Shown here piece by piece: positions 6,438 to 21,433 of a DNA stretch of 64,000 nt (positions are counted from its first letter, which is position 1; each line of letters begins with the position of its first letter). The position numbers were made by a program, and so were the translations under genes. The stretch lies in assembly GCA_013360215.1 (NCBI GenBank), contig JABWCP010000015.1, positions 1 through 64,000 on the forward strand, given 5' to 3'. This DNA is from a bacterium (GTDB lineage: Bacteria; CLD3; SB21). A model generated the notes under the pieces. It was not told where the DNA came from and did not search any database. It saw only the letters and a list, made by a program, of their open reading frames with translations.

Positions 6438-7013
6438 TTATTTATTGTTTCTAGACGGCGAAACCCATGCATTGCCATCAATAAAATAACGCCATTTCTT
6501 CTCCATCCCTACGCGAATGCCGATACGCGGCGACGTTTTTATTTTTGCATGGTATCGGTCATCAGAAAGATACAGATCGTCGGTCGTCAGATCGGTTCCA
6601 TTATGGGATTTATCAATGCCCAACGCTAAACATAGTTTCCCTGGTCCGTTACTCAAAGCAAAGCCGCGAGCCATAACACGGTTAGCTTGCATGCGTTCTA
6701 CGCCATCAAGCGGTTCAACCGCCCGGATCAGGCATGCACCGGCTGTACCTTCTTTTTCGCATACGACATTGGCACAGTAATACATCCCGTAAATAAAATA
6801 CACATACAGATGGCCGGGCACGCCAAACATTATTTTATTTCTTGGCGTCAAACCGCGGTACGCATGCGACGCCGGGTCATCACCGGCACGATAAGCTTCT
6901 ACTTCGACAATACGCGCCGACATCGTCCCGTGATGCAAAATTTTTCCTAATAATTCGGGAGCCACTTCTAAGGTAGGCCGCGCATAAAACGAACGCGGAA
7001 GCGGTTTAGGCAT
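6438..7013 (-). CDS. 3-methyladenine DNA glycosylase (AAG/MPG family)
   Basis: A 191-residue base-excision-repair enzyme that removes alkylated purines such as 3-methyladenine from DNA. It has the family's core: ARPTLEVAPELLGKIL (11-26), the active-site IVEVEAYRAGDDPASHAYRG stretch (35-54) with the catalytic glutamate, GHLYVYFIYGMYYCANVV and GACLIRAVEPLDG. Length and motif order match bacterial 'putative 3-methyladenine DNA glycosylases'. Its ATG at 7013 overlaps the end of the preceding helical-repeat gene by 8 bases, so the two are co-transcribed and probably translationally coupled. No obvious damage to the fold is visible. Confidence 0.93.
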   Translation of the reverse strand: MPKPLPRSFYARPTLEVAPELLGKILHHGTMSARIVEVEAYRAGDDPASHAYRGLTPRNKIMFGVPGHLYVYFIYGMYYCANVVCEKEGTAGACLIRAVEPLDGVERMQANRVMARGFALSNGPGKLCLALGIDKSHNGTDLTTDDLYLSDDRYHAKIKTSPRIGIRVGMEKKWRYFIDGNAWVSPSRNNK

Positions 7014-8817
7014 GATGGGTTTGTTTGTCGTGTTTAAACCCTTGATGAATTTCCTCTAATAGAAAATCCACCTGTAACATAAATCGTTCCGATGCACAAC
7101 CGCGGCGCTTGCACTCACGGCAGGGGATTTTCAATTTACAATCCACTTCGTTTTTATGCAGGGTTTCAATCTCTCCGAACGCTTCATAGAGATCGCTTTC
7201 GTTTTCTTCCTGTTTACGTTTCGGTTCGTTTTCCGTCATCAATTTACCCCATTTGATACGAAGCATCTCTTCAAGGTCTTTGATACGGCCAAGAAACTGA
7301 CTGATCGTATTACGCCAGATCATCACAGCTTTATTGAGTACGGCTTCATCCACTTCGTCTTCAACACCGGATTCTTCTTCAAACTTGAAACTTTTCAGAT
7401 CAAGAATGTGTCGCACCATACCTTGAATCTCTTCAAATTCCGTAAAAAGCTCACGTTTGGTATCGCTGTAAAGCGCATTGATCGAACCTTCAAAATGCTC
7501 GATCGCTTGACGAATCACACCCTGCGCGACGGTTGCCGATCCGGATTCGAGATTTTTGGCTTCTTTGGCAAAAAGCTGAAGATAATTCAGCGAACCGCGC
7601 AACATAGTGACGGCTTCTTTTTGCGAATTGATACGACTGTAATTGAGAGACTGAAAGATCACGTCAAAATAAGCATTAACGCTGACTTCGATTTCCTTCA
7701 TTTTTTTATTTAATCGTTCAGCTTCTTTGAGACGAATCTCCGTGGTACGTTGACGCACTCTTTCATCGGTGCTCTTTTCAAGCATCGGCAACACTTGCGA
7801 TGAAATATGCCGCGGCGTCGAATCATCGGATACCAGATCAATAATGTCATCCGGCTGCAATATTTCCAACGCCTGCGCCCTCAGATCGGCATCTTTATCA
7901 AAATGAAGATAGGTAATCAGCGTAGCATTAAAAAGATCGGTCGGATCTTCCACGCACTTTTCCAACTCTCTTCGTTTGCGGTCTTGCAATACCTGTGTGA
8001 GTTGCCGACGTGCGGCATTGTGCTCATTCGTCTGATCCGCCCCCAGATCACCGCCCGCAGCCAGGTTACGAATTTCAAGATGAACCGCAGACTCCAGCAT
8101 GCGAAAAATCGAAATCGCCGTTATTTTGGGTATAGATTCCCGCATGGTGTGTATGAGCGAATCATCTTCGAGCGCATTGATCAACGTTTGCACATCCAAT
8201 GCAGAGACGACATTTTCTGCGGCCATTCGCACTTGCGCATCATCGTCAATGAGGTATGAAAACAATGTAATCAAATTAGCACGTTGTATCGGCTGCGTAT
8301 TGGCCGTATGTATCTCGCGAACTTTGACGATACGACGACTGCGCCGCTTCATGACCTTTTGTGCAAGCTTGAGGATTTTATCATCTTCGCGATCGATGTC
8401 GCGTTCCTTGATCAGATTGATAAAATCATACAATACCTTGGTGGGCAACTGAGGATTACCAAAAACCGCTTCGAGAACATCCAGGTCGCGTTCAAACAAC
8501 AAAAACACGATCAAATGTTGTACTTCGTTTTCACGGCCAAATTTGATGCGCTCCTGTTCACTAAAATCCAAGATGTGAACATATTTTCCTACGTCGCGGA
8601 AAAACGGATCGTTTTTCATCGCAATACGCGCATCGGGCGGTTGTTCATCTAAGTTTTTATAGGATTGAATATCAAACGGAAGCGACTGACGATAATAACG
8701 ATGCAGGATTTCTTTATAATGAACATGATCCGATTTCGAAAATTTATCGTCCGTTTCGATCAGACGCTCCGGATCGGTGATATCCGGTGTATTTGTTATT
8801 TTAGTGTTTTCAGACAT
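7006..8817 (-). CDS. Alpha-helical repeat protein with C-terminal cysteine cluster, function unknown
   Basis: 603 residues, very rich in charged helices, with no signal peptide or membrane segment, so probably cytoplasmic. Residues about 100-350 look like irregular HEAT/ARM-type helical pairs (for example LFSYLIDDDAQVRMAAENVVSAL and DADLRAQALEILQPDDIIDLV in pattern). Residues about 345-540 look like coiled coil. The last 45 residues carry four cysteines, C560, C566, C569 and C574 (C-x5-C-x2-C-x4-C), which could bind a metal or an iron-sulfur cluster. I recognise no named family. It overlaps the metallo-hydrolase gene upstream and the glycosylase gene downstream by 8 bases each, so the three are one translationally coupled unit. 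A scaffold or signalling role is only a guess. The gene itself is certain from its length and overlaps. Confidence 0.85.
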   Translation of the reverse strand: MSENTKITNTPDITDPERLIETDDKFSKSDHVHYKEILHRYYRQSLPFDIQSYKNLDEQPPDARIAMKNDPFFRDVGKYVHILDFSEQERIKFGRENEVQHLIVFLLFERDLDVLEAVFGNPQLPTKVLYDFINLIKERDIDREDDKILKLAQKVMKRRSRRIVKVREIHTANTQPIQRANLITLFSYLIDDDAQVRMAAENVVSALDVQTLINALEDDSLIHTMRESIPKITAISIFRMLESAVHLEIRNLAAGGDLGADQTNEHNAARRQLTQVLQDRKRRELEKCVEDPTDLFNATLITYLHFDKDADLRAQALEILQPDDIIDLVSDDSTPRHISSQVLPMLEKSTDERVRQRTTEIRLKEAERLNKKMKEIEVSVNAYFDVIFQSLNYSRINSQKEAVTMLRGSLNYLQLFAKEAKNLESGSATVAQGVIRQAIEHFEGSINALYSDTKRELFTEFEEIQGMVRHILDLKSFKFEEESGVEDEVDEAVLNKAVMIWRNTISQFLGRIKDLEEMLRIKWGKLMTENEPKRKQEENESDLYEAFGEIETLHKNEVDCKLKIPCRECKRRGCASERFMLQVDFLLEEIHQGFKHDKQTHHA

Positions 8818-9716: not shown

Positions 9717-10301
9717 TTATTTGTTCATCGAACGGCTTCCGGGCTTGATCGCCGGCAATGCGCCTTCCCGGCATAGGGGACATGTTTCGGGTTCATATTT
9801 GACTACATCCACAGAGACTAAGGAAAATTTAGGTACGCCAAACTCGGCGCGCCCGCCGCTGCGATCCACCAGATAACCGACGCCGACGACATTCGCATCC
9901 GCATCACGGCAAAGTTGAATCACCTCTTTGAGGGAACCGCCGGTCGTCACGACATCCTCGACAACCAACACGTTTTCATCGCGTTTGATTTCAAAACCGC
10001 GCCGAAAACGCATGGTGCCGTTTTCACGTTCGGAAAATATACAACGTGCATTCAGAGTGCGGGCTACCTCATGCGCTACGATGATCCCGCCTACTGCCGG
10101 TGCGGCCACGGCATGAATTTTTTTATCTTTATAATGCAATGCTATTTCACTGCACAACAGCTGTGCCCAGTTGGGATGCTGTAAAACGCGAGCGCATTGA
10201 AAATAATTAGGACTGTGTGCGCCCGAAGTCAGGATAAAATGACCTTCAAGTAAAGCGCCGCTTTGTTTGAAAATACCGAGTACTTCTTCCTGTTTCATCA
10301 T
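9717..10301 (-). CDS. pyrE: Orotate phosphoribosyltransferase
   Basis: Converts orotate and PRPP to orotidine 5'-monophosphate in de novo pyrimidine synthesis. The PRPP-binding signature VLVVEDVVTTGGS is at residues 111-123. The orotate-binding N terminus has LTSGAHSPNYFQCA and the flexible catalytic loop region has FSERENGTMRFRRGFEI. At 194 residues it is a normal PyrE. The C-terminal tail with CPLC (about residues 173-176) is seen in some bacterial PyrE lineages. Its start overlaps the stop of the GH2-fold gene by 4 bases (ATGA), indicating coupling. No other pyrimidine gene lies nearby. Confidence 0.95.
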   Translation of the reverse strand: MMKQEEVLGIFKQSGALLEGHFILTSGAHSPNYFQCARVLQHPNWAQLLCSEIALHYKDKKIHAVAAPAVGGIIVAHEVARTLNARCIFSERENGTMRFRRGFEIKRDENVLVVEDVVTTGGSLKEVIQLCRDADANVVGVGYLVDRSGGRAEFGVPKFSLVSVDVVKYEPETCPLCREGALPAIKPGSRSMNK

Positions 10302-12973
10302 TCGGTTGTATAGTTTTTAGATGAGCTGACTTGTTCGATATAATTCCACACATTAAAAAAATCATGCGATCCCGAATAATAAATTCCCAAAGCCGTGCAC
10401 AAAACGATCAGCGCTCCGCCTAAAATAAATCCCGTACGCCACCAACTCGCATTAAAAAGTATTTGCGCTGCGCGGAAAAAACGAATCCAATGCCAGAAGA
10501 AAAACAATACGGCCGCCGTAGCTCCCAGGCTCAAGACAAAATCGGTTTTCATGAGACGATGGAAGACCACCACAAAGGGAATAAGATACAGAAAATGCGA
10601 ACTGCTCCACGCCGCCGCGATAATACTTTGCTGGAAATTTACGTACGCCTGAAAAGGTTTTTGAAATATCATAAAGAGAAGCCCGATCACCGTGATGACC
10701 AAAGCGTAAATCATCGTCCACTCCAGCACAAAAAGTTCAGGACTCCATGCCAGGCCGTCTACCCAGGCTTTGAGGCCATTGCTGCGCAAGAACGTCGCAA
10801 GGTACTCATCAAACAAATGGTTCCGCCGCAATTCAAAGAAAACGATAGACAGCAATGCCGCGTACGCTAAGCTCGCAAGAAAGCCGACTAACAACGCCGG
10901 CCACAGTGTGATGACGCGGTTTTCGCGAATGTCACCAAAAAAGCTTACTACTTTGAACAACGAGCGGTGAACGCTGTTTTTAAATTTAGGACTTTGCCGG
11001 TAAAAACTGATAAACAAGACGACCAATATCAGTCCCGTGATCGGATACGTTTTGGGATATACGGGTTCGTAGGCACCGACGGCGATCGGCTCCAAAGCAT
11101 CATCCGAATACAAGGCGCGCAATGTTTCAAACGCATAGCGCTCCTGACGATCGTAGGTCACGACGCCGGACGTATAGATTGTTGAACTCGCATTCGGATT
11201 GGCATAAAGATACGGGCGCTGTACGGCAAAATCATTGAACGAACGCACCACGCCGCCGGCCAATTTCCACTCGCCGGTCTTTTTATAAAAATCAGCCAAC
11301 ACCTTAGCCTGAAACTTGGTGGACATCGGGTCGCTGTAGCCATTCTGATTATTGGAAAAAATCTGCGCACCGTACACCGCGATCAGTGCACGTGTGGGCC
11401 ACTTGGCCAGACTGCGCTGGACGAAAAGATTGGATACCAGAGGGTTATTGAGACGAATATCCAGCTGGACAATATCCACGTTGTCCATAAACGAATCATA
11501 ACCGCCAAAAGCCGAAACGGCGAAAACGGGACGACGATCTTTATTTTTTATTTCGCCGACAATTTGCTGGAAATAATAATTGGCTGCGCCATCCGACGGA
11601 TCGGGAGCAAATCCCACACCCCAGGCAAGGATACTCGGATTGAGATGCTCATATTCGACGATATGCCGATAGTATTTGCGAATATCTTCGACATAACTCG
11701 GCGAACGCATAATATCCGCCGTAAGTCGCCAGGATGGAATTTCATAAAACAAAAGCAAACCATAACGATTGCACAGTTCTACAAAATAAGGATGCGGCGG
11801 ATGATGACGAAAACTCACGGCATTAGCGCCAAGGCGTTTGATTTTGAGAATATCCTGCTCCATCATCGCCCAGCTCATGGTGGTGCCCGCGCCCGGATAA
11901 TCTTCATAATATTCGACGGCGCGTATCGTCACCGGTTGCGCATTGAGAAAAATATACTGGTCGTGCACATCGGCCTGGGCTATACCGAGTTGGTATTCGA
12001 CACGATCAATCACCGTCGTGCCCTGTACTAAATACATTACAACGCGATAACGACTCGGCGTGATCGGGTTCCAAAAGACCGGTTTTTCTATTGAAAAACG
12101 TAATTGACGATCAACAAAATTGAAAACCGAAACCGTATCTTCTTCGTTTTGCTCGCGAATTTTCGGAATGTCCCACACGTTGCGATATTTTTTAAACCGA
12201 TTTGTGTACACCGGTTCCGGATTATTTTCTTCAAACATTTCCAAAATATACCGCAGCGGCTGATTGGGGTTGATCAATCGTAATGTATCCACAAGGCGTA
12301 AACTGTATTCGTAATTACGCAAATGCCAATTGACCACAAAATCACATTTGCGCAAATCATTGGACAACGTATAACCTACGGTGTATTGATCAATAGCAAC
12401 TTTTGGAAGACCTACGAGAAAGAGTTCACGGGTTATACCGCTGTACAATTTGGGTTGCAACAAACTGGTTTCACGGGGATAGCTGGTAAACGGATCAACA
12501 CGCGAATCCACTGTAATTTCAATTTTGTTTTCCTGACCGATACGGATCAGATCTTCACGCAAGTCCGCTTCCAATCGCGTATAACTGTTATTGGCATTGG
12601 TGACAAATTCGCCATTGATGCGAATGTCGGCGCGGAAATTGATGCCTAAGCTGACAAAACGAAAGTGCTTATTACGAAAATCTTCGCCGGGAACGAACGT
12701 ACGCGTAAATGTAACTTTGCCGCTATAATCATAAGAACTGGGAACAATAACCTTTCGTGAAACCCCTTCCACGGACATGGTCCACTCACCCGCCAAGTCT
12801 AAGAAGGCGCGGGTTTCGGTAAGATTGACATACTCGCGTAAGGTCTGGGGATCATAGCCGTTTTTTTCGCCGAGGATACGAAAATCATTTTGCGCGTGAA
12901 CGAAAAGCGCGCAGCATAGAAGAGTGATGATACGAAAAATCATTCGCAGTACTGCTCCGGTCGCGGCCGTCAT
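10298..12973 (-). CDS. GH2-fold membrane protein, predicted catalytically inactive
   Basis: 891 residues: a hydrophobic leader (11-28, ending FVHAQ), a sugar-binding jelly-roll domain (about 48-190, with SGITREL at 178-184), an immunoglobulin-like domain, a TIM barrel typical of glycoside hydrolase family 2 (about 345-625), and about six membrane helices (643-658, 692-713, 748-770, 784-804, 811-833, 848-867). The alignment to beta-glucuronidase motifs is easy to see, but both catalytic residues are gone: the acid/base segment NPSILAWGVGFAPD has A456 where the family has Glu of the N-E pair, and the nucleophile segment ALIAVYGAQ has V533 where E of E-Y-G is expected. It may therefore be a glycan sensor, scaffold or binding protein anchored in the membrane. 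ATG at 12973 is the longest start; ATG at 12943 has a GGAG upstream and gives a cleaner signal peptide. It overlaps pyrE by 4 bases and follows arginase by 9. Confidence 0.88.
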   Translation of the reverse strand: MTAATGAVLRMIFRIITLLCCALFVHAQNDFRILGEKNGYDPQTLREYVNLTETRAFLDLAGEWTMSVEGVSRKVIVPSSYDYSGKVTFTRTFVPGEDFRNKHFRFVSLGINFRADIRINGEFVTNANNSYTRLEADLREDLIRIGQENKIEITVDSRVDPFTSYPRETSLLQPKLYSGITRELFLVGLPKVAIDQYTVGYTLSNDLRKCDFVVNWHLRNYEYSLRLVDTLRLINPNQPLRYILEMFEENNPEPVYTNRFKKYRNVWDIPKIREQNEEDTVSVFNFVDRQLRFSIEKPVFWNPITPSRYRVVMYLVQGTTVIDRVEYQLGIAQADVHDQYIFLNAQPVTIRAVEYYEDYPGAGTTMSWAMMEQDILKIKRLGANAVSFRHHPPHPYFVELCNRYGLLLFYEIPSWRLTADIMRSPSYVEDIRKYYRHIVEYEHLNPSILAWGVGFAPDPSDGAANYYFQQIVGEIKNKDRRPVFAVSAFGGYDSFMDNVDIVQLDIRLNNPLVSNLFVQRSLAKWPTRALIAVYGAQIFSNNQNGYSDPMSTKFQAKVLADFYKKTGEWKLAGGVVRSFNDFAVQRPYLYANPNASSTIYTSGVVTYDRQERYAFETLRALYSDDALEPIAVGAYEPVYPKTYPITGLILVVLFISFYRQSPKFKNSVHRSLFKVVSFFGDIRENRVITLWPALLVGFLASLAYAALLSIVFFELRRNHLFDEYLATFLRSNGLKAWVDGLAWSPELFVLEWTMIYALVITVIGLLFMIFQKPFQAYVNFQQSIIAAAWSSSHFLYLIPFVVVFHRLMKTDFVLSLGATAAVLFFFWHWIRFFRAAQILFNASWWRTGFILGGALIVLCTALGIYYSGSHDFFNVWNYIEQVSSSKNYTTE

Positions 12974-12982
12974 CGGCCGAAT

Positions 12983-13891
12983 TTACATAATTCGTTTACC
13001 GAAAAGTGAAGCCATCATTTCGACGCCGACATGTGCCGTCGTGTTTTTAATATCAAGTATCGGATTGGTTTCAACAATTTCCGCAGAAATTACTTTTTTA
13101 GAATCGCACAGCGATTCCATGGCGAGGTGGGTTTCACGGTACGTAAGTCCGCCGGGTACCGGCGTTCCGACACCGGGAGCAATACTCGGATCCATACTGT
13201 CCGCATCAAAGCTCACATGAATGCCCGCGGTATCTCGCGCGGCTATATCAATGGCTTGTCGTATAATCCTGGACATACCTTGTTCGTCAATGTCGCGCAT
13301 TGTAAAAACGGTGACCCCCATACGTCGGATATTATCAATTTCTCCGTCATCCAATGTACGAATGCCTACAAGTACGGTATTCTCAGGATTGACTTTGACA
13401 AATTCACCGCCGACACCGGTCAACTTGGGATGACCGTGTCCGAGTGATACGGCAAGCGGCATGCCGTGAATATTCCCTGAGGGCGAGGTATCGGGCGTGT
13501 TCATATCGCCGTGCGCATCGATCCAAATCACGCCGATTTTCTGATTGGTTTTTCTAAAATGACCGGATACGCCCGCCAGTGTGCCGATAGCGATCGAATG
13601 ATCGCCGCCGAGCACAAGCGGTATATGATTATCGGCGAGGCATTTTTCGACGTCATCGGCGAGCGCCGTTACGGCACGCGTTACTTCATTGAGGTACTTG
13701 AGTTTTTCGTCGCCGACCCTAATGACTTCGGGGTTTTTGGTAACGATATCCCCCTTGTCTTTAACGGTGTGGCCTAATTCCTGCAGTCGCTCCGTCAAAC
13801 CGGCCAACCGCAAAGCGGACGGGCCCATATCGGTTCCGCGGCGCCCTGCACCCAAATCCAATGGAACACCTATGAGACGAATGACGGACAT
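12983..13891 (-). CDS. rocF: Arginase family ureohydrolase
   Basis: A 302-residue enzyme that hydrolyses arginine to ornithine and urea. All six expected manganese ligands are in place: H98 (GGDHS), D125, H127 and D129 (WIDAHGDMN), and D229 and D231 (SFDADSMDP). The substrate loop PDTSPSGNIHGMPL (133-146) and the GVGTPVPGGLTYRE segment are those of true arginases rather than agmatinases. It starts at ATG 13891 with AGAGGT just upstream and is followed by the GH2-fold gene after 9 bases, so they are likely co-transcribed. It is unusual beside a polysaccharide locus but probably marks the return to housekeeping genes. Confidence 0.94.
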   Translation of the reverse strand: MSVIRLIGVPLDLGAGRRGTDMGPSALRLAGLTERLQELGHTVKDKGDIVTKNPEVIRVGDEKLKYLNEVTRAVTALADDVEKCLADNHIPLVLGGDHSIAIGTLAGVSGHFRKTNQKIGVIWIDAHGDMNTPDTSPSGNIHGMPLAVSLGHGHPKLTGVGGEFVKVNPENTVLVGIRTLDDGEIDNIRRMGVTVFTMRDIDEQGMSRIIRQAIDIAARDTAGIHVSFDADSMDPSIAPGVGTPVPGGLTYRETHLAMESLCDSKKVISAEIVETNPILDIKNTTAHVGVEMMASLFGKRIM

Positions 13892-17134: not shown

Positions 17135-20100
17135 TTACTTCAACAACAGTATCCGTCTCGATTTTATGTATCTTCGACCTGAAATTTTTCCAATGGCTTC
17201 CATACGTATAATATATATTCCTGACGCTTTCCCCTCAGCCTTCCAATCAATTTCAAAATACTTTGCCGGAAGCCTCCCTTTGTAAATCCTCTGCACTTTT
17301 TGCCCGAGTATATTATAGATATCCAGAATAACCTCGCTTTCTTCGGGAACTTGAAAACGAAGTATAGTGTTCGGGTTAAATGGATTAGGATAGTTCTGAA
17401 AGAGTTCAAAGCTTTTAGGTAATTCTTCAAAAGTTTGATTTGAAAAACGCTTAGTCGTGTGAAAATAAAAAGTATCAATAGAAGAAACCGTAAACATACC
17501 GTCGAACACCTTGACCGTCCAATAATATTTGGAATTTTCTTGAAATACAATCCCCGAAAAAGTTACGTTTGTATCTTTTATGCCATGAAAAACCGTGTCT
17601 AATCCCGGGCCGTAAATTCTAAAATGATATAATAATGTGTCCTGTGAATCCGGGTCGTTTGCTTTACTCCATGTAAATGTTCTCATTAGTGGTGTTTTGA
17701 ATAAAGTTAAAGTGTCTTGATGAGTAGGATTCTCAAGTGCAAACGCTGTTGGCGGTCGGAAAGCCCTTCCAACTGTTACCGCCCATTCCACTTCCGAAGA
17801 ACTGCCATTTCTATCATACGCTTCAGCAATTACCAAATGTTTGCCAATATCCGATTCACTTGGAACCCCAATAATAACACCGCTTACACTGTCTATAGTC
17901 ATCCAATCCGGACCATCAAACAACCTGTAACGAAGGATATCATTGAATAAAAAACTATCCTTATCAAACGCATATAACTGAAAGCGATATAGTGAATCAA
18001 CCTTTGCAACTGAATCGGTACTCGACAGAAAAATCGGTGCATGATTTACATGAACAATCTTAAGTTCAAATGATTGCTGTATCGTTACAAAACCATCTGT
18101 AGCTTCCAATAAAACTGTTGTGTCGCCAACCGAATAGCCATCGGGAATGCCTTGGAGAACACCACTAATACTATCCATCGTCAACCAGTGTGGACCTATA
18201 ACTAAACGATACTTGATCTTATCATTAAATAACAAACTATCTTGATCGTAGGCATATGCAGTATAATTATAAACCTCGTCTTCCAGTGCAATTGTGTCGG
18301 GATTACTAACAAAGACTGGCGGATGGTTCGTATGCAGTACATTGATAGAGAAAACTAAGCTATCTCTACCCCCTTTTTGATCGTAGGCTTCAACAACAAC
18401 ATGGTTTTCACCAGCATCATAGGCGTCTGGAATTCCTGTAAGATAACCGGTCACTGAATCTATTATCAGCCATGAAGGACCATTCAGCATGAAATAGCGC
18501 AATTCGTCTCCAAAGAACATGCTGTCAACATCATGCGCGTAAATCCGTATTACAAATTGAGAATCTTCTTTTGCCGTTTGAACTGGAATACTTCCAAAAA
18601 TGGGCGCATGATTAGTATGATGAACACGGATTGACTGCGTTTGCACATTTGTCGCACCTTGCAAATCGGTAACCAACATTGAAAACGATGTATCTCCTAC
18701 GTTATAAGCTGTTGGAGTCCCATAGACGATCATTGACGCAGGATCAAATGTCATCCAACTAGGTTTGAAAAGCAATTCCAGTATAGTTGTATCGCCATAA
18801 ACACTATCCGAATCAGCTACAGTTATTTTGCATTGATACAGTGAGTCTTCATAAAGATTGGAATCTGGTACAGCGCCAAAAAATGGAGTTCTATTTGACG
18901 GAAAAGTCGGATTTAATTTTATATGATAAACCGTATCAAGTTTTGAGCTTGTCACTCTGAATTCAATTGATGTGTCACGCCATAATTTGGCATAACCGGT
19001 TATCGCACTATCGGTAAAACTCATAGTTTTTGGAAATGAGATTGGACTAATTTTTACCGAATCTAGATATTCAAATTGTCTGTATCCCTGTTGAGAACCC
19101 CAACGATCAATCAAAGTAATAGGCCTCAACTGAATTTTTATTGAATCAGAGTAATCGAAACTGATTTCATTGTTAAATAGAACACCTACATTCTCTAAGC
19201 CGATAAGATCACTTGGTCCACTTTTATTTCCATTATCATCCACAGATATGACACGATAAAATGAAAAAGATAATTTTTTTAAATAATCGCTTATAGTAAA
19301 TCGGTTTGTATCCGTTGAATCAATAAGCGTTTGATCAGAAACCGAAAAACCTCTGATGTTACTGCCGTATATATAATACTTCGTTGGGAGGCTCCCGCTG
19401 GAGTTGATATCCCATAATATATTAATGCCGTTTGTTGAAGCTGCCAAGCGCAAATTCTTAACTACATCAGGTATTTGTACCTGAAATCTCCAAGCAGGAC
19501 TCCAATCACTATAAACTCCGTCTTTTGAACGTGTCGCCACTCTCCAATAATAAGTCGTATTGGGCGATAATAGGCCCTCATGAGGAACTTCAAACTGATT
19601 AGTGGTACCATGAACGTTATATTGACTTGTCATTTGGTTATAGTGTGAAGAGACAGGGAACCGAAACAATGAGTCTTCACTGACCTGAATATGAAAATCC
19701 GATATCTCAAATAAATTCATCCCGGAAGGCAGACCGAACTGAAACAGAAACTTTGATGAATTAGTAATCCCACCGTCTAAAGGAAAAATCGGTGAATCAA
19801 TTATTGGTGGCACCTCAATGGAATCAATAGAAAAAAAGGAGTGCTCATAAACTAAACCGTTAAAGGCTTTATTATCATCGTTACTTATCCGAACAGTATT
19901 AATACCCGCGTTCAATCTAGGCAAGGAGGCGGGGTTCAGTTGAAAAACTGAACTTAAAGATAAGCTATCAATTATTAGACCTTTATCCAAAACTGAATTC
20001 CATTCGAGGTGAATAAAATACTTATTTGTAATAGGGGTCCCAACAGGAGATATGAAGTTGTAAAGCCTGACAGAATCAGATATCAAACCAAACAAATTGG

Positions 20101-21433
20101 AATCTAAAGTATAAATCAAAATCGGCGATTGGAGCGTATCTTTCTGAAAATAAATCGAAAGGCCTGAGTTAGTATCAGATCGTAAAATGTTAAACTTCAC
20201 ATATCCGTCCAATAAAGAATATGGATTTGAATTTTCTATTGTAAAATAGGATATATTCGAATTTACAGTTGAATATATTTGGACATGATCGGAGGTTGAA
20301 TCAACCGATAGATTTGATTGACTTACAAAAGCTCGGGGCAAAGCGTGTTTTGTAAGCGGTTGATAAATCTGATAACCATAACTTATCGTTGGAGGTGGCG
20401 CAAAAACATCATTGTTGACATGATAATACTGATAAAGCCCTGTAAAATCATTCCATGTAAAAATAAATTTTTCACTTGGGCGAATTTTAAGTCCAAACGT
20501 ATCAATGACATTACGATTATATTCTCGCAGAAGCCCTTGACGCGAATAAACGGCAGAAAAACGATCATCCCAGTCAGTTTCCCCAAATAACACTAAACCG
20601 TTAGTTCGTTGACGCCTAGCAATATCTTGATCATTCCATATTTCTTCTATGGTTGCAAGAGCCTTATTGTCTCTTAGTGTATAAAATACGTTTAGATCGG
20701 GATCAAGTGGGATGATCCCTTTATCTGTGTGAATCAGTGTCACAGCATGTGAGGGAAGACGTGTATTAGGGTCGTGACCAATCCCACCGGAATTCGTACC
20801 CGAATACCCTAAATACTTAAGAATGGAAGAAAGTATCTGTGCCAACTGGTCACATTGGCCGGCACCATAAACATTGTAAGTCCTTAAGGGGTTTATTAAC
20901 CAACTTTGCTCATTAGTACTGGTAACCCAATGAAACATTTCGTTTGTAAGAAATCCCCACACGGCTTTCAATGAATCGTCGCGCGTGCCCAATCCGTGTA
21001 AATCTAGCCGTTTAAGCCAATCGCTAAATTGATAGACGAATCCCTTACCATTTATTTCGATCTGCGGATTTACAATTGTTTCCGACGATGTGTTTTCTAA
21101 TGAAAAACTATAGTTATTCTCAATACCTTGTATACCCGACCTCGTATTATAATAATTAAGCGGGTATCCTTGGTAAAAGAGAGGGTTATGATAAACAATA
21201 CTATGCGTCGAATAACGCCGAGTATTGGATGCATCTATTTTCCCGCCGGCGTCTATGACAACAGTCGTGTCGCTTCCTGTTATTGAATGACGAATTAAAT
21301 GAATCTGACTTTGCAGTAATCTGGTATCAAATAGAAAAGCAATGAACAAAGAAAGTTTTAATATTAATAATACTCTAGAACACCGCATATAGACGCCACA
21401 TAAGAATTTACTTATTTTAAGGTGATTCTTCAT
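17135..21433 (-). CDS. Large secreted protein: transglutaminase-like domain, fibronectin-like and CADG repeats, C-terminal sorting domain
   Basis: 1432 residues. A signal-type hydrophobic stretch (20-40, ending LLQSQ) leads into a domain with a transglutaminase-like Cys-His-Asp arrangement: C194 (YGAGQCDQ), H229 (PSHAVTLIH) and D244 (IPLDPDLNVF). Fibronectin/Ig-like regions follow (about 540-745). Then come four tandem cadherin-like (dystroglycan type) repeats of about 95 residues, at about 847-940, 941-1036, 1037-1130 and 1131-1224; each starts N-[RH]-[TAP]-P-x-F and contains GP-x-W-hydrophobic and GxP. Another fibronectin-like unit precedes the C-terminal sorting domain (1343-1432: FQNYPNPFNPNTILRF, YNILGQKV, SGIYIIRM), the signal for type IX-like export and surface attachment. 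It may cross-link or cleave surface material. It sits between glycosyltransferases and the initiating transferase, in the AT-rich block. The domain reading is firm, the substrate unknown. Confidence 0.9.
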   Translation of the reverse strand: MKNHLKISKFLCGVYMRCSRVLLILKLSLFIAFLFDTRLLQSQIHLIRHSITGSDTTVVIDAGGKIDASNTRRYSTHSIVYHNPLFYQGYPLNYYNTRSGIQGIENNYSFSLENTSSETIVNPQIEINGKGFVYQFSDWLKRLDLHGLGTRDDSLKAVWGFLTNEMFHWVTSTNEQSWLINPLRTYNVYGAGQCDQLAQILSSILKYLGYSGTNSGGIGHDPNTRLPSHAVTLIHTDKGIIPLDPDLNVFYTLRDNKALATIEEIWNDQDIARRQRTNGLVLFGETDWDDRFSAVYSRQGLLREYNRNVIDTFGLKIRPSEKFIFTWNDFTGLYQYYHVNNDVFAPPPTISYGYQIYQPLTKHALPRAFVSQSNLSVDSTSDHVQIYSTVNSNISYFTIENSNPYSLLDGYVKFNILRSDTNSGLSIYFQKDTLQSPILIYTLDSNLFGLISDSVRLYNFISPVGTPITNKYFIHLEWNSVLDKGLIIDSLSLSSVFQLNPASLPRLNAGINTVRISNDDNKAFNGLVYEHSFFSIDSIEVPPIIDSPIFPLDGGITNSSKFLFQFGLPSGMNLFEISDFHIQVSEDSLFRFPVSSHYNQMTSQYNVHGTTNQFEVPHEGLLSPNTTYYWRVATRSKDGVYSDWSPAWRFQVQIPDVVKNLRLAASTNGINILWDINSSGSLPTKYYIYGSNIRGFSVSDQTLIDSTDTNRFTISDYLKKLSFSFYRVISVDDNGNKSGPSDLIGLENVGVLFNNEISFDYSDSIKIQLRPITLIDRWGSQQGYRQFEYLDSVKISPISFPKTMSFTDSAITGYAKLWRDTSIEFRVTSSKLDTVYHIKLNPTFPSNRTPFFGAVPDSNLYEDSLYQCKITVADSDSVYGDTTILELLFKPSWMTFDPASMIVYGTPTAYNVGDTSFSMLVTDLQGATNVQTQSIRVHHTNHAPIFGSIPVQTAKEDSQFVIRIYAHDVDSMFFGDELRYFMLNGPSWLIIDSVTGYLTGIPDAYDAGENHVVVEAYDQKGGRDSLVFSINVLHTNHPPVFVSNPDTIALEDEVYNYTAYAYDQDSLLFNDKIKYRLVIGPHWLTMDSISGVLQGIPDGYSVGDTTVLLEATDGFVTIQQSFELKIVHVNHAPIFLSSTDSVAKVDSLYRFQLYAFDKDSFLFNDILRYRLFDGPDWMTIDSVSGVIIGVPSESDIGKHLVIAEAYDRNGSSSEVEWAVTVGRAFRPPTAFALENPTHQDTLTLFKTPLMRTFTWSKANDPDSQDTLLYHFRIYGPGLDTVFHGIKDTNVTFSGIVFQENSKYYWTVKVFDGMFTVSSIDTFYFHTTKRFSNQTFEELPKSFELFQNYPNPFNPNTILRFQVPEESEVILDIYNILGQKVQRIYKGRLPAKYFEIDWKAEGKASGIYIIRMEAIGKISGRRYIKSRRILLLK

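Follow-up and report, generated by a model that had tools for sequence, protein, structure and literature searches.

A glycoside hydrolase family 2 fold without its catalytic glutamates, fused to a Yip1-like membrane domain and conserved across bacterial phyla

Why would a bacterium retain, at its membrane, a complete glycosidase fold from which both catalytic residues have disappeared? When a dead enzyme is kept under strong selection, there is usually a function that has gone unnoticed, and the window analysed here, the whole stretch of 64,000 nucleotides, carries a candidate for such a case. Its gene (10298–12973, minus strand) encodes a protein of 891 amino acids in an unbroken frame and is present as a single copy in its genome. 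The initial annotation had described the product, hereafter the pseudo-GH2 protein, as a membrane-anchored member of the glycoside hydrolase family 2 (GH2) fold, and our domain analysis agreed, recovering GH2 Pfam domains followed by hydrophobic segments beyond the barrel.

The Pfam scan resolved the order sugar-binding, immunoglobulin-like and TIM-barrel domain, all on the minus strand. An N-terminal hydrophobic segment (aa 1–27, ending LFVHA-Q; 12893–12973) is a probable signal peptide by hydropathy, with a presumed cleavage site. It is followed by a jelly-roll sugar-binding domain at about aa 57–190 (12404–12805; approximate boundary; Glyco_hydro_2_N2, PF22666, 1.6e-6; PF02837, 2.1e-4), an immunoglobulin-like domain at about aa 191–331 (11981–12403; approximate start; Glyco_hydro_2, PF00703, 3.1e-5, at aa 278–331) and the TIM barrel at aa 336–622 (11108–11968; Glyco_hydro_2_C, PF02836, 1.6e-15). 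PF22666, PF00703 and PF02836 all exceeded the Pfam cut-offs, placing the protein in the GH2 fold, and its PDB matches were GH2 enzymes. Six hydrophobic segments lie C-terminal to the barrel by hydropathy. AlphaFold models, built without an alignment, were of low confidence both for the full-length protein (pLDDT 36) and for its C-terminal domain (pLDDT 57).

In GH2 enzymes, the acid/base glutamate follows the asparagine of W-S-x-x-N-E, and the nucleophile glutamate lies in E-Y/F-G at the end of strand 7. Neither motif is present in the window protein, which has F455-A456 at the first site and V533-Y-G at the second. When phmmer aligned the window segment NPSILAWGVGFA to LacZ HPSVIIWSLGNE, A456 fell on the acid/base glutamate. 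By alignment, the two lost positions correspond to codons GCT (11606–11608) and GTG (11375–11377), both on the minus strand; the open frame and codon coordinates given in the initial annotation were reproduced exactly.

This loss extends well beyond one genome. None of 79 homologues, from at least five phyla, carries glutamate at both catalytic positions, whereas 14 canonical GH2 proteins, drawn from other genomes in the same searches and treated identically in a joint alignment, have it at 93% (column 456) and 100% (column 533). The inactive set shows no preferred residue at either column, the commonest being glycine (27% and 22%, respectively). Six members have glutamate at 456 (L082, L109, L120, L121, L192 and L200); we do not count these as residual activity, because glutamine takes its place in relatives of L109 and L120 and all six lack the nucleophile glutamate. 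Glutamate at 533 occurs in a single member (1/79), whose row is unsurely aligned. The earlier proposal of a pseudo-hydrolase is supported, and orthologues with both glutamates, which would have marked the A456/V533 change as local, were not found among the 79. As judged from these motifs, the window protein is predicted to be a catalytically dead relative of the GH2 enzymes, which hydrolyse beta-glycosides.

To define how widely this protein occurs, we combined a search of 60 relatives with one that used a C-terminal-domain profile (A2). Of the six other genomes of the window's own family, five gave an orthologue in the former search (50–52% identical; one split over two contigs); the two genomes of the class's sister family have one as well (24–25% identity), as do genomes of other phyla, and no true orthologue in this search had both glutamates. 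With the profile, 8/9 genomes of the window's own phylum were positive, the one without a match being only 85% complete. Two small phyla gave 1/1 and 5/5 and two larger ones 51/82 and 28/39, while a broad sample yielded 23 of 386 genomes, eight of them in further families; absences are soft, as the quick first pass of the genome searches may miss copies. Matches came one per genome, the double matches in G117 and G137 being adjoining pieces of one contig, and essentially all complete copies keep the full-length architecture (open frames of 813–981 aa). The combination of GH2 with C-terminal helices, which the initial annotation had proposed to look for in FCB genomes, is found across several phyla. 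A separate search of a contig collection for related loci returned only one ordinary GH2 protein. Type IX secretion (T9SS) sorting domains and GWxTD proteins would fit the FCB group.

Phylogenetic analysis placed the inactive proteins together. In a maximum-likelihood tree of 51 barrels, all 37 inactive ones fell on one side of a single branch (support 99/99); within this clade the deep order is unresolved and several branches are long. Because the inactive barrels form one clade and none of the 79 homologues keeps both glutamates, the pattern is most simply explained by a single loss of catalysis that preceded either the divergence of these phyla or the spread of the gene between them.

Selection has nevertheless not relaxed on the dead barrel. 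Across four close pairs, its dN/dS was 0.012–0.029, the lowest of the three domains, compared with 0.020–0.070 for the N-terminal domains of the same pairs and 0.051–0.057 for the Yip1 domain in three of them. Such strong purifying selection argues that the dead barrel is still useful. What is preserved is the fold: W301, P306, Y309, N384, G405, D500, G573, D581 and G603 are conserved equally in the inactive and canonical sets. The columns of the former pocket (equivalents of LacZ H357, H391, N460, E461, E537 and W568) lie at the 39th–65th percentile of entropy in the inactive set, against the 3rd–17th percentile in the canonical set. Column by column, the alignment thus indicates a constrained fold around an unconstrained old pocket. 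A dead fold kept across phyla must therefore have gained a non-catalytic job, presumably in the cell envelope.

The membrane part offers a clue to what that job might be. The C-terminal membrane domain, including its leading helix, spans aa 636–891 (10301–11068, minus strand), and 7/10 of the C-terminal domains scanned matched the Pfam Yip1 family (PF04893; best 1.4e-5). The window domain itself scored 18.7 bits (E = 0.0017), below the 28.6 cut-off, which one member, the G090 protein L067, exceeded both in a direct scan (30.5 bits) and in the genome search (34.2 bits). Profile-profile comparison by hhalign of 70 C-termini with stand-alone Yip1 proteins gave a probability of 92.5 (P = 5e-7) over 189 collinear columns, while six control families, polytopic ones included, reached at most 0.2% probability. 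A PDB search with the C-terminal profile found no relative. Taken together, the Pfam matches, the profile-profile comparison and the member above the Pfam cut-off identify the six-helix C-terminus, at the level of sequence, as a Yip1-like domain. The initial annotation had placed about six membrane helices outside GH2; they are not an unrelated appendage. Conserved residues in this domain include R686, W743-x-P745, W789, P799 and R831.

Hydropathy and the charge balance of the flanking loops place the first membrane helix after the barrel at about aa 642–662 (10988–11050, minus strand). Loop charges in the window protein are +6/−2 (TM1-2), +4/−5 (TM2-3), +2/0 (TM5-6) and +1/−3 (tail). From these we infer a barrel outside the cytoplasm, in the periplasm, with TM1 leading inward ahead of five Yip1 helices; predicted helices and charge balance agree with a five-helix Yip1 module whose N-terminus would lie in the cytoplasm.

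As to gene neighbourhood, the initial annotation had noted a tight operon with arginase and pyrE near a polysaccharide locus. In the window, the arginase gene (12983–13891, minus strand; TIGR01229, 6.8e-93), upstream in the same operon, ends 9 bases before the pseudo-GH2 gene, whose stop is overlapped by 4 bases by pyrE (9717–10301, minus strand; TIGR01367, 1.7e-64). Within the window's own family, the order WcaJ, Wzi, arginase, pseudo-GH2, pyrE, metallo-hydrolase, 603-aa protein, methylpurine glycosylase and valS is fixed where contigs reach, apart from an additional gene that separates WcaJ from Wzi in one genome. The operon therefore stands for this family but not for other phyla, where the pseudo-GH2 gene has smc and GWxTD, guaB or rpiB as neighbours. 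A functional link to arginase or pyrE was rejected, since both are neighbours in this family only. The 603-aa protein (7006–8817, minus strand) has no Pfam family above cut-off, is about 56% identical across the family, is cysteine-rich near its C-terminus (CKLKIPCRECKRRGC) and always lies in the same cluster. Elsewhere in the window, a 1432-aa secreted protein (17138–21433, minus strand) contains repeated units and a C-terminal sorting domain resembling the type IX secretion kind (NYPNPFNPNT...).

A recurrent neighbour in several phyla is a gene for an exported GWxTD-domain protein (PF20094), which comes behind the pseudo-GH2 gene, either immediately or with smc in between. The next gene in G007 and G008 is GWxTD, followed by an ABC ATPase; in G009, G468, G204 and many genomes of the G053 phylum it is smc and then GWxTD. 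In the G015 phylum, guaB comes next in all sampled loci but one, where rpiB intervenes, and in the G059 group rpiB comes next, with a MacB/LolC-type pair about 6 kb off. Co-occurrence of GWxTD with pseudo-GH2 is uninformative, because GWxTD is present in 82/82 genomes of the G053 phylum, carriers of pseudo-GH2 and non-carriers alike; therefore only gene position supports a link. GWxTD genes are also multicopy (1 to 15 matches per genome in that phylum, five in the window's own genome, at other places than the pseudo-GH2 locus). Examples include L038:7133-8638, L040:15139-16536 and L203:4202-5608, among others, and L201:5628-7037 in the window's own genome. The GWxTD name was not mentioned in the literature searched.

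The reading we favour, tentatively and at somewhat less than an even chance, is that the protein serves in the inner membrane as an accessory or scaffold to a complex for envelope transport or assembly. Three precedents favour it: the Yip1-family protein YknW, a modulator of how the MacAB-like transporter YknXYZ is assembled (PMC4338810, PMC4887032); the Yip1–MacAB cluster of the window's own genome; and the 4F2hc/rBAT (SLC3) proteins, whose glucosidase-like ectodomains have been called fake or orphan glucosidases and which have ancillary roles in partner stability and trafficking (PMC8537225). An exported GH2-fold ectodomain, having lost catalysis once, long ago, is fused to a polytopic Yip1-like domain seated in the inner membrane. 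Like YknW with YknXYZ, the Yip1 module would bind a membrane partner or tune it, and the dead barrel could provide a rigid periplasmic docking surface, as 4F2hc/rBAT ectodomains do for amino-acid transporters. The best candidate partner would be the GWxTD-domain exported protein. Counting against the scaffold model, most neighbours of pseudo-GH2 genes are housekeeping genes; no ABC transporter gene adjoins the window copy, and an ABC ATPase gene lies close to pseudo-GH2 only in G007/G008, after GWxTD. A bolder version, which we regard as rather doubtful, is that a GH2 enzyme was converted once into the periplasmic ectodomain of a Yip1-type organiser acting with GWxTD, the whole being an unrecognised envelope assembly or export module of the FCB type.

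Among the alternatives, the one that survives best is a membrane-held, lectin-like sensor or presenter, in which the barrel would bind an envelope sugar near the old cleft and pass a signal or the chain to Yip1. Retention of the GH2 N-terminal sugar-binding domain fits this idea, as does the one family-specific feature that is conspicuous on the pocket side, an aromatic residue (Y/W/F) at position 355 (codon 11909–11911), at the end of barrel strand 1, which is present in 68/79 inactive members, where canonical GH2 most commonly has arginine, and which could stack on a sugar. Wzi and WcaJ genes also lie upstream in every long-enough contig of the family. Yet conservation in the columns of the former −1 subsite does not exceed the barrel average, and in other phyla the gene is not flanked by polysaccharide genes. 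The glycan-sensing or presenting role put forward in the initial annotation is weakened by this lack of pocket conservation; we consider it possible, on the less likely side, and do not favour it over an accessory or scaffold role.

The remaining explanations fare worse. That the Yip1 membrane part alone matters, with the barrel a passive relic or spacer, would suit the conspicuous invariant residues of the C-terminal domain, but dN/dS is lower in the barrel than in the other domains and essentially every complete copy retains the full-length architecture, making this improbable. Slimmer still is the chance that the protein remains an enzyme through displaced acidic residues such as D505, where beta-strand 6 ends. 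An acidic residue (D or E) occupies position 505 in 42/79 members versus 2/14 canonical proteins, and E411, D500 and D581 are kept; these kept acids, however, are shared with canonical GH2, all other pocket residues are free, and, with 505 acidic in only 53%, no acidic column is at once universal in the family and specific to it. A relocated catalytic acid was rejected for want of a universal candidate column. A local pseudogene or sequencing artefact, for which nothing speaks beyond the absent glutamates, was rejected with near certainty given the open frame, the orthologues in 8/9 genomes of the phylum and strong purifying selection.

These results bear on genome interpretation as well as on function. 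In some phyla almost all genomes carry a single pseudo-GH2 copy, and it would be annotated as a glycosidase, an error both for function prediction and for carbohydrate-enzyme counts. Through the fusion, an exported ectodomain is also connected with bacterial Yip1, a domain that is poorly understood, and gene order adds the unexplained GWxTD proteins; three orphan families (pseudo-GH2, Yip1 and GWxTD) thereby come under a common, testable hypothesis.

Of the known systems, GH2 enzymes (LacZ, beta-glucuronidase and beta-galacturonidase) share with the protein three domains, their order and conserved fold residues, but the family has lost the −1 subsite, both glutamates included, forms a separate clade and carries an additional Yip1-like domain. 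NCBIfam GH2 models matched it far below their cut-offs. A second GH2 protein with several C-terminal hydrophobic segments (L044:6092-8623, from G048) resembles it in layout but retains both catalytic motifs (NE and EYG), falls among the canonical GH2 proteins in the tree and has no Pfam Yip1 match at its C-terminus; it suggests that fusion of GH2 to membrane segments arose more than once.

On the membrane side, about 190 C-terminal columns are collinear with stand-alone members of the Yip1 family (PF04893). YknW of Bacillus is the one studied bacterial case of this family that we found in the literature searched. The stand-alone bacterial Yip1 proteins compared are small, whereas in pseudo-GH2 a large exported GH2 fold precedes the domain. 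The only stand-alone Yip1 gene of the window's own genome (L202:9542-10285) heads a cluster (G000:C9, L202:3364-10285) encoding a TolC-type protein, an HlyD/MacA adaptor, an ABC ATPase and two MacB permeases, apparently a Gram-negative counterpart of YknWXYZ. An operon of the YknW type (membrane fusion protein, ABC ATPase and FtsX/MacB permease) thus surrounds the stand-alone Yip1 gene but does not lie beside the pseudo-GH2 gene of the window. The resemblance to 4F2hc/rBAT lies in a membrane-held, enzyme-like ectodomain, which in those proteins works with a polytopic partner; they belong to the alpha-amylase family, have a single membrane helix and a separate partner subunit, and are vertebrate proteins, so that the likeness is analogy and not homology.

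As the initial annotation had supposed, we found no described family with the GH2–Yip1 architecture in Pfam, NCBIfam, the PDB or the literature searched, where no paper combined a Yip1 domain with glycoside hydrolase family 2; a description elsewhere is possible. Its parts are of known kinds, and their fusion into a conserved, inactivated GH2–Yip1 protein shared across phyla apparently constitutes a family not described before.
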